Positions 7,100 to 14,961 of a stretch of DNA of 64,000 nt are shown one piece after another. The position numbers and the translations under genes were made by a program. Origin of the DNA: Duganella zoogloeoides (GTDB lineage: Bacteria > Pseudomonadota > Gammaproteobacteria > Burkholderiales > Burkholderiaceae_D); assembly GCF_034479515.1 (NCBI RefSeq), contig NZ_CP140152.1, forward strand, positions 4,216,001 to 4,280,000, written 5' to 3'. Positions within the stretch are counted from its first letter, which is position 1; each line of letters starts with the position of its first letter. The notes beneath the pieces are model-generated. The model had not been told where the DNA came from. It did no database searches and saw nothing but the letters and a program-made list of their open reading frames with translations.

Positions 7100-9664
7100 T
7101 CAGACTTCGGCGATACGCTTGCGGATATGCGCCAGCGCGTCTTCCACCTGGTCGATCAGGATCAGGCACAGATCCCCTTCCTGCAGGCGGCTCAGCGCCG
7201 TATCGATGGCCAGGAACTCGCCGTAAATCTCCTGCACGTGCGACGTGCGCGGTGCGCCTTGCAGACCGGAGCGCAGCAGCGCCACCACTTCGCCATCGAC
7301 GCGGCCGCGCTGGCACGCGTCTTCGTACAGCAGCACGTCGTCGAACGCGCGACCGAGGATTTCGGTCTGCTGCCGGATGTCTTCGTCGCGGCGGTCGCCG
7401 GCGCCGGAAATCACCACGCCACGACGCTTGGCCGGCATGGTTTCTACGGCCTGCACCAGCGCCAGGATGGCATCCGGATTGTGGCCGTAGTCGGCGATCA
7501 CGGTCGCACCCTTGTAATCGAACACGTTGAAGCGGCCGGGCGCGTTGTCGGAATCGTTGGCGAAGGTTTTCAGGCCCAGGCGGATCGCATCCCAGCTGAT
7601 GCCCACGCCCCATGCGGCAGCGACCGACGCCATCACGTTCTCGACCTGGAAGCCGATGGCGCCGTTGCGGGTGATCGGCACTTCCGCCAGCGGAATGCGT
7701 ACCTGCTGCTTGCCTTCGGCAGCGACCAGGTGGCCGTCCGCGACGTACACGGTGCGGCAGCCCTGCGCCAGGTGGGTGGCGATGACGGGATGGCCGGCGT
7801 CCGCGCCGAAGTAGATGATCTTGCCTTTGCAGTTGGCGGCCATGGCGGCGACGATCGGATCGACCGCGTTCAACACCGCGTAGCCGTCTGCCGCGACGTT
7901 CTGCACGATCACGCGCTTCAAGACCGCCAGGTCTTCCACGGTGGTGATGTAGTTCAGGCCCAGGTGGTCGCCGGCGCCGATGTTGGTCACTACCGCCACC
8001 TGGCAGCGGTCGAAGGCCAGGCCTTCGCGCAGGATGCCGCCACGGGCGCTTTCGAATACCGCCGCGTCCACGTCCGGGTGCAGCAGCACGTTGCGCGCGC
8101 TGCGCGGCCCGCTGCAGTCGCCGCTGTCGGTCTGGCGGCCTTCGATGTACACGCCGTCGGTGTTGGTCATGCCGGTGCGCAGGCCGCTGGCCGTGAGCAG
8201 GTGCGCGATCAGGCGCACGGTGGTGGTCTTGCCGTTGGTGCCGGTGACGGCAACGACCGGGATGCGGCCGTTTTCTCCCGGCGCGAACATGGTGTTCACG
8301 ATGGCCTCGCCCACGGCGCGGCCCTTGCCGTACGACGGCGCGATGTGCATGCGCAGGCCGGGGGCGGCGTTGACTTCCACCACGCCGCCGCGACGGTCGT
8401 CAAACGGTTCGAGCACGCCTTCGCACACCACGTCCACGCCGCAGATATCGAGACCGATCATCTGCGCCGCTTCCACCGCGCGCGCCGCCACTTCCGGGTG
8501 CACGTCGTCGGTCACGTCGGTGGCGGTGCCGCCGGTGGACAGGTTGGCGTTGTTACGCAGGATCACGCGCTGACCCTTGCCTGGCACGGAGTCCGCTTCC
8601 AGGTCTTGCAGCGCCAGGCGCGCCAGGGCAATGTCGTCGAACCGGATCTTGGTCAGCGACGTCGAGTGGCCGCTGCCACGGCGCGGGTCGGCATTGACCA
8701 GGTCCACCAGTTGGCGCACCGTGTGCACGCCGTCGCCAACCACTTGCGGCGGGTCGCGGCGGGCGGCAGCAATGAGCTTGTTGCCGATGACGAGCAGGCG
8801 GAAATCGTGGCCCGGAAGGTAGCGCTCGACCATCACGTCGTCGCGGAATTCCTTGGCGGTGCGGAACGCCTGCTCCAGGTGCTCTTTCGAATTGACGTTG
8901 ACCGTCACGCCCTTGCCCTGGTTGCCGTCCTTCGGCTTGACCACGACCGGCATGCCGATGTCCTGCGCGGCTTGCCAGGCGTCCGCCTCGTCTTCCACGG
9001 TGCGGCCGTACGGGACCGGCACGCCGGCCGCGTGCAGCAGCTTCTTGGTCAGTTCCTTGTCCTGGGCGATCGATTCGCCGATGGCGCTGGTGGTGTCCAT
9101 TTCGGCAGCCTGGATGCGGCGCTGCTTGGAACCCCAGCCGAACATCACCATGCTGCCTTCGGTCAGGCGGCGGATCGGGATGTCGCGCGCCAGCGCGGCG
9201 TTGACGATGGAGCCGGTGCTCGGTCCGAGGCGCACGTCTTCGTCGAGGTCGCGCAGTTCGGTGAGCGCGGCGTCGAGGTCGAAGGGGGTGTCGTTCAGCG
9301 CGGCGTTGATCAGGTTTTCGGCCATGGCGACGGCCAGGCGGCCCACGGCTTCTTCCGAGTATTCCACCACGGTCTGGTACACGCCCTCTTCCGGCGTGGC
9401 GGTGGTGCGGCTGAAGGTGACCGGGCAGCCGGCTTGCGCCTGCAGGCTCAGGGCTGCGGCTTCGAGCACATTGGCCAGCGAGATGGTTTCACCGGTGGCG
9501 TGCAGGGCGCCGACCGCCGGGAAGCGCGCGTGCAGGCGCTGCTCGAAGCCGGGCAATTGCGCAATAGCGCGCTGGTCGGGCGGGCACGATACGACCACTT
9601 CCATGGCGGTGTGGTGGCTCCAGAGATTCGGGCCACGAAGGGCGCGGGTGCGGATGACTTCCAT
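7100..9664 (-). CDS. cphA: Cyanophycin synthetase, Mur-competent copy
   Basis: An 854-aa cyanophycin synthetase. CphA makes the multi-L-arginyl-poly-L-aspartate reserve polymer by alternating ATP-dependent ligations. The ATP-grasp domain (about 200-460) has KPKDGNQGKG (243-252) and EVNAAPGLRMH. The Mur-ligase-like domain (about 470-854) has an intact P-loop, VTGTNGKTTT (Lys479), and a full C-terminal lid domain (FNVFDYKGATVIADYGHNPD onward). The N-domain is odd: where the paralogue reads GHVLEHVVLELQ, this one reads LANVLEAAALSLQ, so both histidines of that motif are gone. It is second in a two-gene operon, 21 nt after the paralogue, and ends at a strong terminator. Confidence 0.93.
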   Translation of the reverse strand: MEVIRTRALRGPNLWSHHTAMEVVVSCPPDQRAIAQLPGFEQRLHARFPAVGALHATGETISLANVLEAAALSLQAQAGCPVTFSRTTATPEEGVYQTVVEYSEEAVGRLAVAMAENLINAALNDTPFDLDAALTELRDLDEDVRLGPSTGSIVNAALARDIPIRRLTEGSMVMFGWGSKQRRIQAAEMDTTSAIGESIAQDKELTKKLLHAAGVPVPYGRTVEDEADAWQAAQDIGMPVVVKPKDGNQGKGVTVNVNSKEHLEQAFRTAKEFRDDVMVERYLPGHDFRLLVIGNKLIAAARRDPPQVVGDGVHTVRQLVDLVNADPRRGSGHSTSLTKIRFDDIALARLALQDLEADSVPGKGQRVILRNNANLSTGGTATDVTDDVHPEVAARAVEAAQMIGLDICGVDVVCEGVLEPFDDRRGGVVEVNAAPGLRMHIAPSYGKGRAVGEAIVNTMFAPGENGRIPVVAVTGTNGKTTTVRLIAHLLTASGLRTGMTNTDGVYIEGRQTDSGDCSGPRSARNVLLHPDVDAAVFESARGGILREGLAFDRCQVAVVTNIGAGDHLGLNYITTVEDLAVLKRVIVQNVAADGYAVLNAVDPIVAAMAANCKGKIIYFGADAGHPVIATHLAQGCRTVYVADGHLVAAEGKQQVRIPLAEVPITRNGAIGFQVENVMASVAAAWGVGISWDAIRLGLKTFANDSDNAPGRFNVFDYKGATVIADYGHNPDAILALVQAVETMPAKRRGVVISGAGDRRDEDIRQQTEILGRAFDDVLLYEDACQRGRVDGEVVALLRSGLQGAPRTSHVQEIYGEFLAIDTALSRLQEGDLCLILIDQVEDALAHIRKRIAEV

Positions 9665-9685
9665 AAATCTGCTTGTTCTTTCGTA

Positions 9686-11863
9686 TCAGTGATGGATGCG
9701 CTTCGGATTCGCATCGAAGGTGCGCAAACCGGCGGCGATCAGTTCCGGCGTCAGGCCCAGCGCCCAACCGGCGGCAATCGCAGCCAGCACGGCCTCGGGC
9801 GGCACCAGCGGCGACAGCGGCAGGCTGACCATGTCCACGTAGCCCTGGCCCAGCACGATGGTGTGCTGGTCGCCCTGGATGCGCTGGAAGACCACGCGCG
9901 CGCTGTCCTGGCGGTGCTGGACGATGGCCGGCAGATGCTCTTCCACGCCGTAGAAAATCACTTCGCCGTCGCACAAATCTGCCATCTCCACCACTTGCGG
10001 ATCTGCGGCGTTGAGCACGGCGGCACCGCTGGCCAGCACCACGTCCACCTGGGTGCGCAGCACGTTGTACAGTTTGTCGTCGGTGTCGATGTGGAACTCG
10101 GCCACGTCTTCCAGGCCGGAGACATCGGTCACCACGCCCACCGTGCACTTGTCGTAGGCCAGGCCTTCGGTGAGGATCATGCGCGCGCTCGATTCGAACA
10201 CCGCCGCTTCCACGTTCTTGTTGAGCAGCAGCCGCTCGCCGGTTTCCCAGTCGGACAGGCCGTCGCGCGACAGCAGGCGGCTGTTCACGTACAGGCCGTC
10301 GGCGCAGCTCACGCCGACCTTCTTGCCGCCCACTTGCAGCAGCCAGGCGATCAGGCGCGCGGCCATGGTGGTGCCGTGCGTGCCGGTGATGCCCACGACC
10401 GGGATGCGGCCCGTGTCTTCCTGCTTGAACAACTGTTCCACGATGGCGGCGCCGACGTTGCGCGGCTCGCCGTGTTCGGGCTTCAGGTGCATCAGCAGGC
10501 CGGGGCTGGCATTGACTTCGATGATGGCGCCGCCCTGCTCGTGCAGCGGACGGGTAATGTCGGACGCCACCAGGTCGATGCCGGCGATGTCGAGGCCCAC
10601 CACGCGCGCAGCCAGCGTGGCCATGGCGGCCACTTCCGGGTGCACCTTGTCGGTGACGTCGGTGGTGACGTTGCCGTTGGCCTGGATCAGCACCTTCTGG
10701 CCGTCCAGCGGCACGGAAAGCGCGTCCATGCCCTGGCGCTTGAGTTCCAGGATGGTTTCGCCGGCTTCCGCCGGCTTGATCAGGCTAAGGGGGAAATCTT
10801 CTTCCTCGCCACGGCGCGGATCGATATTGATGTGCAGATCGACGAGCTGCTGGATGGTGTGGACGCCGTCGCCGGTGATCCACAAGGCTTCGCCGGCGGC
10901 GGCAGCGATCATGCGCTTGCCGACGACCAGCAGGCGGTGCTCGTTACCGACGATGAAGCGCTCGACGATCACGCTCGAGCTGTAGCCTTCGTCGGACGCC
11001 AGCGCATAGGCGGCAGTGACATCGGCTTCGGTCATCAGGTTGAGCGACACGCCACGGCCATGGTTGCCGTTGTACGGCTTGACCACGACCGGCAGGCCGA
11101 TGTCCTGCGCGGCTTCCCAGGCAGCTTCCGCGCTGGTCACCAGTTCACCTTCGGGCACCGGCACGCCGCACGACGACAGCAGCGACTTGGTCAGGTCCTT
11201 GTCGCTGGCGATGCCTTCGGCAATCGCGCTGGTCTGCTCGGTTTCGGCGGTCCAGATGCGGCGCTGGGCGGCGCCGTGGCCCAGTTGCACCAGGTTGCCG
11301 TCGGTGAGGCGAATCGACGGAATCGCGCGGTCGGTAGCGGCATCGACGATGTTGCCGGTGCTCGGACCCAGGCACAGCGTCTCAACCAGGTCGGTCAGTT
11401 CGGCCACGGTGGCGGCCAGGTCGTACGGTTGATCCTCGATCATTGCCATCAGCAGGTCGCGCCCGGCGGCCAGGGCGGCGCGGCCGACCTGTTCCTGGCG
11501 GGTGCGGAACGCCATCTTGTAGTAGCCGGTGTCCTCGCCGATCTGGCGGGTTTTGCCGAAGCCGGTCTTCATGCCGGCCAGGTTTTGCAGCTCCAGCACC
11601 ACGTGCTCGAGCACGTGGCCGGCGTAGGTGCCGTCGCGCAGGCGCTCGAGGAAGCCGCCCACCTCGCCCACGCCGCAGCGGTGCTCGAGCAGGCCCGGCA
11701 GGATCGTGGTCAGGCGCTCGTACAGGCCCGGCAGCAGGTTGGACGGGTATTGTTCCAGCTCGCCAATGTCCAGCCACGCCTCGATCACCGGGCGATAGGT
11801 CCAGATATTGGGGCCGCGCAAGTGGGTGACGCGGAGGATTTCTATGCTTTTCTTCTTGATCAT
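9686..11863 (-). CDS. Cyanophycin synthetase paralogue with degenerate, truncated Mur domain
   Basis: A 725-aa CphA-family protein, about 130 aa shorter than its neighbour. The N-domain is canonical (GTYAGHVLEHVVLELQNLAG, about 78-97; HVLEH at 83-87). The ATP-grasp domain is intact (KPYNGNHGRG, EVNASPGLLMH). The Mur P-loop reads GITGTHGTTMA: the ATP-binding Lys of GTNGKT is replaced by Thr (about residues 494-499). The protein stops at FDANPKRIHH, before the Mur lid. It should perform at most the ATP-grasp ligation. Comparable short forms (CphA2/CphA') are known in other bacteria. It is first in the operon; its promoter region is shared with the ABC transporter gene. Confidence 0.88.
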   Translation of the reverse strand: MIKKKSIEILRVTHLRGPNIWTYRPVIEAWLDIGELEQYPSNLLPGLYERLTTILPGLLEHRCGVGEVGGFLERLRDGTYAGHVLEHVVLELQNLAGMKTGFGKTRQIGEDTGYYKMAFRTRQEQVGRAALAAGRDLLMAMIEDQPYDLAATVAELTDLVETLCLGPSTGNIVDAATDRAIPSIRLTDGNLVQLGHGAAQRRIWTAETEQTSAIAEGIASDKDLTKSLLSSCGVPVPEGELVTSAEAAWEAAQDIGLPVVVKPYNGNHGRGVSLNLMTEADVTAAYALASDEGYSSSVIVERFIVGNEHRLLVVGKRMIAAAAGEALWITGDGVHTIQQLVDLHINIDPRRGEEEDFPLSLIKPAEAGETILELKRQGMDALSVPLDGQKVLIQANGNVTTDVTDKVHPEVAAMATLAARVVGLDIAGIDLVASDITRPLHEQGGAIIEVNASPGLLMHLKPEHGEPRNVGAAIVEQLFKQEDTGRIPVVGITGTHGTTMAARLIAWLLQVGGKKVGVSCADGLYVNSRLLSRDGLSDWETGERLLLNKNVEAAVFESSARMILTEGLAYDKCTVGVVTDVSGLEDVAEFHIDTDDKLYNVLRTQVDVVLASGAAVLNAADPQVVEMADLCDGEVIFYGVEEHLPAIVQHRQDSARVVFQRIQGDQHTIVLGQGYVDMVSLPLSPLVPPEAVLAAIAAGWALGLTPELIAAGLRTFDANPKRIHH

Positions 11864-12211: not shown

Positions 12212-14488
12212 ATGACAAGCCAACAACTTTCCACCATATCGAGCGTCGGCGGCGAGCTGCCCGACCGCTGGCGTTCCGATATACAGGCACAACTTTCCCA
12301 AGGGGAAAACGTTGTAAGTGCCCTGGAGGTTGACCTGGATCAGCAACTTCGTTTCGCCAAGGGTGTGGTCGTGATTACCAACACCCGCCTGCTGGCGCGC
12401 GCGCCGGGCCAGGAGCAATGGCAGGCATGGCCGTTCTCGTTCGATCTGTCGCTGGAACACCACGATCACGCGGGCGTGGGCCACCTGGAACTGGTGTCCG
12501 CGCGCGGCCGCCTGGCCGCCTGGCGTTTTACGCTGGGCCAGAACCTGCAGGCAATCCGCCTGATCGAGCACTTTGCCGCCCAGCGCGACAGCCATTCCAG
12601 CGGCGAGCCGGTCATCAGCGACGAGACCAACATGTGCCCCAGTTGCAAGGCGCCGCTCGAACCGGACCAGGAAGAATGCCCGGTCTGCACCAAGGTGGTG
12701 TACACGCCGCCGTCCACCTGGACCCTGTTCCGCCTGTGGCGCTTCGCCCGCCCCTATAAACTGCAACTGGGCCTGGGCTTTTTGCTGATGCTGCTGTCCA
12801 CCGGCGCCCACATGATCCCGCCGTATCTGACCATCCCGCTGATGGACAAGGTGCTGATCCCGTACCAGAACGGCACGCCGGTCGATTCGAGCCTGGTGGC
12901 GCTGTACATGTCCGGCCTGGTGGGCGCAGCGGTGCTGGCGTGGATTTTCGGCTGGGCCAAGACCTATGTGCTGGCACTGGTCTCCGAGCGCATCGGCGCC
13001 GACCTGCGCACCGAGACTTATGACCACCTGCTGCGCCTCTCGCTCGAATACTTCGGCGGCAAGCGCACCGGCGACCTAATGTCGCGCATCGGTAGCGAAA
13101 GCGACCGCATTTGCGTGTTCCTGTCGCTGCATTTGCTCGACTTCGCATCCGACTGCCTGATGATCATCATGACCGGCGTGATCCTGTTCTCGATCGATCC
13201 GTATCTCGCCATCTTCGCGCTGGCGCCGCTGCCGTTCATCGCCTGGCTGATCCACCTGGTGCGCGACCGCCTGCGCACCGGTTTCGAAAAGATCGACCGC
13301 GTGTGGGGCGAAGTGACCAACGTGCTGGCCGATACCATACCCGGCATCCGCGTCGTCAAAGCGTTCGCCCAGGAGACGCGCGAAGCGGCGCGCTTCCGCA
13401 CCGCCAACAAGCACAACCTGGCCGTCAACGACAAGCTCAATAAAATCTGGTCGCTGTTCTCGCCCACCGTGTCGTTCCTGACCGAACTGGGCCTGCTGGT
13501 GATCTGGGTGTTCGGCATTTACCAGGTCTCGAAGGGCAATATCACGGTCGGTGTGCTGTCCGCGTTCATCGCGTACTCGAGCCGCTTCTACGGCCGGCTC
13601 GATTCGATGAGCCGCATCGTCTCGGTCACGCAAAAATCGGCGTCGGCCGCCAAGCGTATTTTCGATATTCTCGATCACGTGTCGTCGGTGCCCGATCCGG
13701 TCAACCCGGTCAAGCTGGCCAAGGTGGAAGGCAATATCACCTTGCGCGAAGTGGGCTTCCGCTACGGTAACCGCGCGGTCAACCGCGGCATCAACCTCGA
13801 TATCAAGGCCGGCGAAATGGTGGGCCTGGTCGGCCACTCGGGTTCCGGCAAATCGACGCTGGTCAACCTGATCTGCCGCTTCTACGACGTGGCCGAAGGC
13901 GCCATCATGCTCGACGGCGTCGATATCCGCTCGCTGGCCATTTCCGACTACCGCCGCCAGATCGGCCTGGTGCTGCAGGAGCCGTTCCTGTTCTTCGGCA
14001 CCATCGCCGAGAACCTCGCCTACGGCAAACCGGATGCGACGCGCGCCGAGATCATGGCAGCCGCCCGCGCCGCGCACGCCCACGAATTCATCCTGCGCCT
14101 GCCGCAGGGCTACGATTCGATGGTCGGTGAACGCGGCCAGGGCCTGTCCGGCGGCGAGCGCCAGCGCATCTCGATCGCGCGTGCGCTGCTGATCGACCCG
14201 AAGATCCTGATCCTCGACGAAGCCACCGCCTCGGTCGATTCGGAGACCGAAAAAGAAATTCAGCGCGCGCTGGAAAACCTGGTCAAAGGCCGCACCACGA
14301 TCGCGATTGCCCACCGCCTGTCCACGCTGGCCAAAGCGGACCGCCTGGTGGTGATGGACCGCGGCGTGGTGGTGGAAGAAGGCGCCCATGATGAACTGAT
14401 GGCCAAGGAAGGCGCGTACTACCGCCTGGTACAGGCGCAAGCCCGCAACGTGGACACGGACCTCGACGACCGTGGCAGCAAGGATTGA
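12212..14488 (+). CDS. Cyanophycin-locus ABC exporter with N-terminal zinc ribbon
   Basis: A 758-aa fused type I ABC exporter half-transporter. Residues 1-125 form a soluble, PH-like domain (DLDQQLRFAKGVVVITNTRLLAR). Residues 142-159 are a four-cysteine zinc ribbon (CPSC ... CPVC). Six membrane helices follow (about 180-460), then an ATPase domain with Walker A GHSGSGKST, signature LSGGERQRISIARAL and Walker B ILILDEATASVDSE. The extra cytosolic N-terminus is not found in MsbA-type exporters. It is divergent from the cyanophycin synthetases and followed by DUF1854, a pairing I know as cyanophycin metabolism-associated. Probably works as a homodimer; substrate unknown. Confidence 0.9.
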   Translation: MTSQQLSTISSVGGELPDRWRSDIQAQLSQGENVVSALEVDLDQQLRFAKGVVVITNTRLLARAPGQEQWQAWPFSFDLSLEHHDHAGVGHLELVSARGRLAAWRFTLGQNLQAIRLIEHFAAQRDSHSSGEPVISDETNMCPSCKAPLEPDQEECPVCTKVVYTPPSTWTLFRLWRFARPYKLQLGLGFLLMLLSTGAHMIPPYLTIPLMDKVLIPYQNGTPVDSSLVALYMSGLVGAAVLAWIFGWAKTYVLALVSERIGADLRTETYDHLLRLSLEYFGGKRTGDLMSRIGSESDRICVFLSLHLLDFASDCLMIIMTGVILFSIDPYLAIFALAPLPFIAWLIHLVRDRLRTGFEKIDRVWGEVTNVLADTIPGIRVVKAFAQETREAARFRTANKHNLAVNDKLNKIWSLFSPTVSFLTELGLLVIWVFGIYQVSKGNITVGVLSAFIAYSSRFYGRLDSMSRIVSVTQKSASAAKRIFDILDHVSSVPDPVNPVKLAKVEGNITLREVGFRYGNRAVNRGINLDIKAGEMVGLVGHSGSGKSTLVNLICRFYDVAEGAIMLDGVDIRSLAISDYRRQIGLVLQEPFLFFGTIAENLAYGKPDATRAEIMAAARAAHAHEFILRLPQGYDSMVGERGQGLSGGERQRISIARALLIDPKILILDEATASVDSETEKEIQRALENLVKGRTTIAIAHRLSTLAKADRLVVMDRGVVVEEGAHDELMAKEGAYYRLVQAQARNVDTDLDDRGSKD

Positions 14489-14493
14489 AGCAG

Positions 14494-14961
14494 ATGAGCA
14501 TTAACTTTGAACTGATACGCAACCCCTTCGGCAAACTGGTACTGACCACGCTTGATGGCGTGGTCCACGAAGGCGTGGCAGCGGTGCGCGCCTTCCCGGT
14601 GCAGGCGCCGGAAGACGGCATTGCGCTGGTCAATCACGACGGCAAGGAAGTGGCCTGGATCGACCGTATCGAGGATTTGCCGGCAGCGGTGGGCGCGCTG
14701 GTGCGCGAGGAATTGAGCGGACGCGAATTCATGCCCGAGATCAGCCGCATCGTGGCCGTGACCAGCTTTGCCACGCCGTGCACCTGGACCGTCAATACCG
14801 ACCGTGGCGACACCGAGTTCGTGCTGCGCGGCGAAGAAGACATCCGCCGGCTGACGGCCGATACGCTCCTGATCTCGGACATCCACGGGATTCACTTCCT
14901 GGTGCGCGATGTGCGCCAGTTGGACAAGCACAGCAAGAAGTTACTGGATCGCTTCCTGTAA
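14494..14961 (+). CDS. DUF1854 protein of the cyanophycin locus
   Basis: A 155-aa soluble protein with the DUF1854 pattern: NPFGKLVLTTLDG near the start, EDGIALVNHDGKEVAWI, and the C-terminal ISDIHGIHFLVRDVRQLDKHSKKLLDRFL-type end (VRDVRQLDKHSKK is visible). No signal peptide or membrane segment. The ATG at 14494 is chosen because AAGGA (14480-14484) lies 9 nt upstream. A TTG at 14485 overlaps the ABC stop but has no usable spacing. It is coupled to the ABC transporter gene and occurs with it next to cphA genes in related bacteria (established co-occurrence). Function unknown; an accessory of the transporter is my inference. Confidence 0.87.
   Translation: MSINFELIRNPFGKLVLTTLDGVVHEGVAAVRAFPVQAPEDGIALVNHDGKEVAWIDRIEDLPAAVGALVREELSGREFMPEISRIVAVTSFATPCTWTVNTDRGDTEFVLRGEEDIRRLTADTLLISDIHGIHFLVRDVRQLDKHSKKLLDRFL

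Follow-up and report, generated by a model that had tools for sequence, protein, structure and literature searches.

Cyanophycin is a polymer in which nitrogen is stored. Cyanophycin synthetase 1 (CphA1), as represented by SuCphA1 (7lg5) and TeCphA1 (7wac), carries three active sites in a single chain. In SuCphA1, the primer-making site of the N domain comprises H57, C59, F67, R70, H79, E82, H83 and E87, with S603 and E607 of the M domain contacting the polymer bound there; H267 belongs to the G site, and D585-H586 to the M site (PMC9262961). Aspartate is bound by R323, N394, R458 and the space beside S396, R309 is the position at the primer end, and K499, T500, T522, E558, R731 and H748 are M-site residues (PMC9427784). 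The N domain of SuCphA1 is slow and yields (beta-Asp-Arg)4, not dipeptides, and expression levels offer no means of adjusting synthesis against cutting in a single-chain CphA1 (PMC9262961).

These sites have been separated by engineering. TmCphA1 became primer-independent when supplied in trans with either the solubilised N domain of SuCphA1 or a SuCphA1 whose G and M sites had been inactivated, and mutant dimers with the N site on one protomer and the G and M sites on the other were active, though somewhat weaker without primer (PMC9262961). The primer-dependent CphA1 of Tatumella morbirosei (7lgn) has no N-domain site (PMC9262961). CphA2 (7ta5, 8fxh) is devoid of the M-site P-loop and lid (PMC9427784), as well as of the N-site motif (PMC9262961). 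Cyanophycin is also cut by CphB (TIGR02069), a peptidase of the unrelated family S51 (PF03575), which releases dipeptides.

Tandem cphA genes and their neighbours are already in print. The Group 1 clusters, which lack cphB, contain two copies of cphA and an ABC transporter, are flanked by insertion sequences, and in Accumulibacter express both copies evenly; the sections covered of that account treat both copies as cphA and are silent on their active sites (PMC10687191). In Tetrasphaera (Actinomycetota), a long and a short cphA copy stand in series beside cphB (PMC10687191). An active-site split between such copies was not reported in the open-access literature that we searched by title and abstract. 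Here, we describe a gene pair from Duganella zoogloeoides with the gene content of the Group 1 clusters, in which the three sites of CphA1 are spread over two genes.

Results and discussion

Locus layout and sequence sets

The window (the whole 64,000-nucleotide stretch of contig NZ_CP140152.1 that was analysed) contains two adjacent minus-strand genes, S (9686..11863, 725 aa), the upstream member, and L (7100..9664, 854 aa), separated by 21 bp; all motifs given below for the two proteins lie on the same strand. Both passed the NCBIfam cyanophycin synthetase model NF010623 (cut-off 877) at 984.6 bits for S and 1248.5 bits for L, bearing out the first-pass annotation of the window, which had described a pair of cyanophycin synthetases; with TIGR02068 (cut-off 850), L was over (985.5 bits) and S under (700.2 bits). 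The approximately 130 C-terminal residues said to be missing from S are indeed absent, since S is 129 residues shorter than L and stops, ahead of the Mur lid, at position 719 of 871 in NF010623. Divergently from S, on the plus strand, lie an exporter-type ABC transporter (12212..14488; NF052233, cyanophycin metabolism-associated ABC transporter, 1411 bits) and a DUF1854 protein (14485..14961, searched from 14503; NF052234, cyanophycin metabolism-associated, 231 bits). The nearest named locus was that of Duganella phyllosphaerae, with 97% identity over S.

The first alignment, in SuCphA1 numbering, comprised 78 S and 77 L rows together with 14 rows of single-chain CphA1, the last representing 13 genes (L003 and L164 are the same gene). 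These first-set loci were hand-chosen, one or a few per genus, from pair genomes together with the window's own pair. Eighty regions were taken, of which one was a third CphA and another came from a genome fetched twice, whose second copy was dropped; three loci stop before L. A second set of 80 named loci gave 80 S and 74 L sequences; it shares lineages with the first set and is therefore a repeat draw without full independence. At six of the named S loci the contig runs out within about 0.6 kb, which leaves S without an L frame. The residues R561, K220, K261, R269, E300, D431, E450 and N452 were picked from the alignments and general knowledge of the ATP-grasp and Mur folds, and their roles are putative.

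L keeps both ligase sites and has lost the N site

The aspartate pocket of L is complete: Arg323 lies in AAARRDPP (8747..8770), Asn394 and Ser396 in the G-omega loop ANLSTGG (8528..8548), and Arg458 in APGLRMH (8345..8365), and together with R309 these residues were found in 77/77 aligned copies and 74/74 named ones. The M site is likewise whole. As the first-pass annotation had stated, the Mur P-loop reads GTNGKT (8225..8242) and the lid, which S is missing, is present (7160..7537; Pfam Mur_ligase_C, residues 710-835); K499, T500, E558, R561, D585, H586, R731 and H748 were complete with the lid in 76/76 copies, and K499 was kept in 74/74 named ones. The locus set aside in the 76-copy count, L126 (G125:C67), has an L of only a 469-aa frame away from the contig end, a candidate frameshift or assembly error. 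A fold model of L reached a mean pLDDT of 73.9 and was weak in the G domain; no claim made here rests on it.

At the N site, NVLEA (9458..9472) stands in place of HxxEH, as noted previously, and the loss proved to be wider than that motif. The Cys59 loop is deleted ahead of NVLEA, so that the H57, C59 and F67 columns are empty in 77/77 L copies; C59 is absent from all 74 named L sequences as well, and H83 is lost in 74/77. Two copies (L108 and L141) still have a readable HxxEH although C59 is gone. E215 is also absent from all 77, but equally from 11 of the 14 single-chain rows. L thus resembles T. morbirosei CphA1, for which no S partner is described, and with its primer-making site lost L alone should need a primer.

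The first-pass annotation had not remarked on the critical G-domain position 267, where the window's L carries Gln (DGNQGKG, 8909..8929). Gln occupies this position in 73/77 aligned L copies (His in the other 4) and in 74/74 named ones. Elsewhere, the position is His in the CphA1 of A. baylyi and in that of T. morbirosei, in this respect different from L, Lys in CphA2 7ta5 and Gln in the third CphA of the D. zoogloeoides genome. Since H267A abolishes SuCphA1 activity (PMC9262961), the G-site activity of L is only assumed.

S keeps the N site and has lost the aspartate pocket and the M site

The reverse arrangement was observed in S. Its N domain has the full set of catalytic and metal residues of the primer-making site (11591..11683; residues 61-91, H-x-C-x19-HxxEH-x3-E), including the HVLEH motif pointed out earlier. 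All eight site residues are invariant in 78/78 aligned and 80/80 named S copies. Among the 120 nearest S-like database proteins listed, 119 have the motif, and the last differs only at His57, which is not a metal ligand. The positions that contact the polymer in SuCphA1 are conserved in altered form, S603 as Arg (78/78 and 80/80) and E607 as Asp (78/78 and 79/80).

In the G domain, the complete CphA1 aspartate pocket is absent. Arg323 is replaced by Gly (AAAAGEALW, 10880..10906; 75/78, and 80/80 in the named set), the G-omega loop with Ser396 has suffered a five-residue deletion (GNVTTDVTD, 10649..10675; 78/78 and 80/80), and Arg458 is replaced by Leu (SPGLLMH, 10487..10507; 72/78 and 79/80), whereas N394 is kept in 72/78 copies and His267 (NGNHGRG, 11051..11071) in 73/78. 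The M site and lid of CphA1 are missing too: the P-loop reads GTHGTT (10367..10384) with Lys499 lost, as the first-pass annotation had reported, and the downstream lid is absent. K499 is kept in 24/78 S copies and 10/80 named ones, and nine long S rows retain the lid, D585-H586 and the Lys of the P-loop. K499 changed at least 14 times and the lid at least 7 times on a FastTree tree of 76 S rows (L160 and L161 left out). Because S396 is lost in all S copies and these M-site features survive in nine, the aspartate pocket was lost first and the M site later.

These losses decide against an obligate ligase split, in which the G site of S would add Asp and the M site of L would add Arg. The distribution of Gln in L and His in S (73/78) at position 267 would suit such an arrangement; however, R323, S396 and R458 are complete in L and lost in S. 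Without the CphA1 aspartate pocket S is not the Asp-adding half, and we rejected this candidate as extremely improbable.

The ATP- and Mg-binding residues of the S G domain persist (K220 in 77, K261 and E300 in 78, D431 in 77, E450 in 76 and N452 in 77 of 78 copies), as does R309 (78 of 78), so that of the "good ATP-grasp site" previously ascribed to S the nucleotide and metal part stands and the Asp-binding part falls. Such retention, in 76-78 of 78 copies for these seven residues, would suit an S that still ligated, its G domain joining a nucleophile other than Asp to the polymer end, whether beta-Asp-Arg, as in CphA2, or a capping amine. CphA2 offers a partial precedent, as it also has neither lid nor N site (PMC9427784, PMC9262961), and 7ta5 has Phe in place of R458. 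But 7ta5, the one chain from which these letters were read, keeps R323, S396 and the G-omega loop, all of them gone in S; both CphA2 chains (7ta5, 8fxh) cross the loop region without a net gap where S has its deletion; and CphA2 is without the N-site motif that S has. Candidate CphA2-like function in S, and with it the earlier suggestion that the 725-aa copy polymerises ready-made dipeptides, is weakened by this comparison. It is weakened further by two S copies that have lost Mg/ATP residues while keeping the N site, L159 (E450A) and L161 (D431A, E450D, N452T). We therefore regard continued ligation by S as improbable. For further CphA2 sequences, none was named CphA2 among the 120 matches listed from a shortened-query search, in which the named ones were cyanophycin synthetase pieces, nor among the 60 records listed from a plasmid search.

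Constraint and phylogeny

Sequence constraint differed between the two proteins by domain. Mean pairwise identity at 74 matched loci was 0.635 (N), 0.648 (G) and 0.465 (M-core) for S, and 0.604, 0.711 and 0.688, respectively, for L. Similarly, median dN/dS, obtained by a pairwise count (105 pairs from 15 Duganella-group loci), rose from 0.136 (N) through 0.267 (G) to 0.338 (M-core) in S and fell from 0.215 through 0.163 to 0.136 in L. The repeated loss of the M site and lid, together with the loss of the G pocket, might be read as the decay of a duplicate, or as the mark of a catalytically inactive protein that serves L only structurally. This reading appears very unlikely, given that the N site is invariant across both sets of copies, that the lowest dN/dS of S is found in its N domain, and that S co-occurs almost completely with L.

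In a G-domain tree (30 S, 30 L and 14 other rows; L161 left out), S, L and the single-chain rows were each separated from the remaining rows by a branch (SH-aLRT 98, 93 and 94, respectively). The branch uniting S and L is only 0.0046 long, and the tree thus does not establish one S/L duplication within Burkholderiales.

Distribution of the pair

We surveyed 358 distinct genomes, drawn from the family (116) and the order (250), with 8 counted in both. S occurred in 158 of them and L in 157; both were present in 155, meaning that 155 of the 160 genomes holding either hold both. S is therefore conserved in relatives, contrary to the unconserved 725-aa copy that the first-pass annotation had named as refuting its proposal. 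The five unpaired genomes are fragmented assemblies. S alone was seen in G087, G021 and G144, and L alone in G007 and G283; partner fragments were recovered in G021, G144 and G283, L of G007 starts at the contig start, and the G087 assembly is 68% complete. S preceded L on a shared strand in each of the 74/74 pairs, and in 67 the gap was within 100 bp. The recurrence of the residue pattern in 78 S and 77 L, and again in 80 S and 74 L, indicates that it is not chance.

Outside the order, among 369 genomes drawn from the class, pairs were found in one family (f142; L159, L160 and L161). These non-Burkholderiales S copies have the most degenerate G domains of all, with R269E in L160 in addition to the substitutions in L159 and L161 given above, and they nevertheless retain the N site, Arg603 and Asp607. 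These f142 losses are the best hint that S may be kept for cutting, not ligating.

A predicted two-gene cyanophycin synthetase

A widespread, conserved division of labour between S and L is real. We consider it probable that the pair forms a two-gene synthetase, in which L polymerises and S, derived from a synthetase that no longer ligates, serves as an endo-cyanophycinase that makes primers, either in trans or as part of a mixed oligomer. This interpretation draws on the residue patterns, their conservation, the separate clades, the selection contrasts, the co-occurrence and the gene order. L would be the polymerase, its G domain adding Asp and its M domain adding Arg, and would by itself require primer in the manner of T. 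morbirosei CphA1. S, a paralogue in which the G and M folds persist, keeps throughout only the site of an N-domain zinc endo-cyanophycinase; it would bind zinc and cut the product of L into short primers, either in trans or within the mixed oligomer. Synthesis and cutting would thereby sit on separate genes. The proposal that the pair splits the work thus survives in its division, with the modification that both ligase sites fall to L and only the primer-making site to S, and priming by the 725-aa copy is the best supported of the options that the first-pass annotation had put forward.

The natural combination of S and L seems, by analogy, a two-gene version of the SuCphA1/TmCphA1 mixture described above, and the conserved, pocketless G domain of S would suit the role of a dimer partner. 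The ATP/Mg residues kept in nearly all S copies, which cutting does not need, may argue against S as a pure cutter.

If so, the pair is predicted to be a natural two-subunit cyanophycin synthetase with the priming cut uncoupled from polymerisation, in which the balance of cutting and synthesis could be set by expression, unlike in single-chain CphA1 (PMC9262961). It offers a testable candidate for the role of two-cphA-copy clusters with an ABC transporter (PMC10687191). In surveys, a genome scored as having CphA1 may hold one polymerase and one cutter; in biotechnology, one gene of the pair expressed alone may give poor polymer for want of its partner.

Neighbouring genes and the scarcity of cyanophycinase

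The ABC transporter and DUF1854 genes were present upstream of S, in divergent orientation, in every named locus with 5 kb or more of upstream sequence (67/67). DUF1854 occurred in 85/86 pair genomes and 0/164 others among the 250 genomes of the order; our open-access literature search found no paper on DUF1854. In the same genomes, cyanophycinase (TIGR02069) was over the cut-off in 6/86 pair genomes and 12/164 others, exceeding 250 bits in just two pair genomes (G000 and G018). By contrast, it was present in 7/7 genomes that have one CphA1-like gene instead of a pair, always at more than 230 bits (these seven exclude G248, which has no cyanophycinase and only distant relatives). CphB is thus nearly absent from S-L pair genomes. 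This scarcity fits published accounts (PMC10206079, PMC10687191, PMC5670224), among them cyanophycinase in 2.8% of 903 beta-proteobacterial cphA1 genomes, with unrecognised isozymes suggested (PMC10206079), and two synthetase genes without cyanophycinase in Herminiimonas (PMC5670224).

Rare cyanophycinase and the divergent ABC exporter and DUF1854 genes of pair genomes raise the question of whether S may be the missing depolymerase. S would then be chiefly an endo-cyanophycinase that mobilises or sizes the polymer where the usual enzyme is missing, rather than a primer maker, and both the 6/86 against 7/7 distribution and the suggested isozymes (PMC10206079) speak for it. The slow N domain of SuCphA1 with its tetrameric product (PMC9262961) speaks against, as does the co-transcription-like layout with L, which suits synthesis; polymer breakdown may also belong to some other enzyme. 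We hold this alternative to be possible but unlikely. A bolder and doubtful extension would make S the cyanophycinase that beta-proteobacteria supposedly lack, a dead synthetase turned dedicated endo-cutter that, with the ABC transporter and DUF1854 protein, cuts the polymer of L down to short beta-Asp-Arg oligomers destined for turnover or export, the locus being an oligomer-making machine instead of a plain granule store. Priming and breakdown by S cannot be told apart from sequence alone. With the primer-making role preferred, S may still explain how D. zoogloeoides and related bacteria start the polymer, and perhaps break it down, without help from the usual cutting enzyme. It also provides a testable candidate answer to the question of how cyanophycin is handled in beta-proteobacteria in which no cyanophycinase can be recognised (PMC10206079).

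A second cyanophycin locus of the same D. zoogloeoides genome was found outside the window (G000:C1, L164:1167-6165), with a PF14518 iron-containing redox enzyme, a cyanophycinase (TIGR02069, 255.5 bits) and, directly after the latter, a third, single-chain CphA of 892 aa, in which C59 is Ser, H79 is Arg and H267 is Gln. In other Burkholderiales, we observed single-chain CphA1-like genes at L167, L168, L170 and L171 and their neighbours (G113, G155, G199 and G309); near these genes, the Mur part of L finds another match at about 31-43% identity, perhaps a separate Mur-type ligase.
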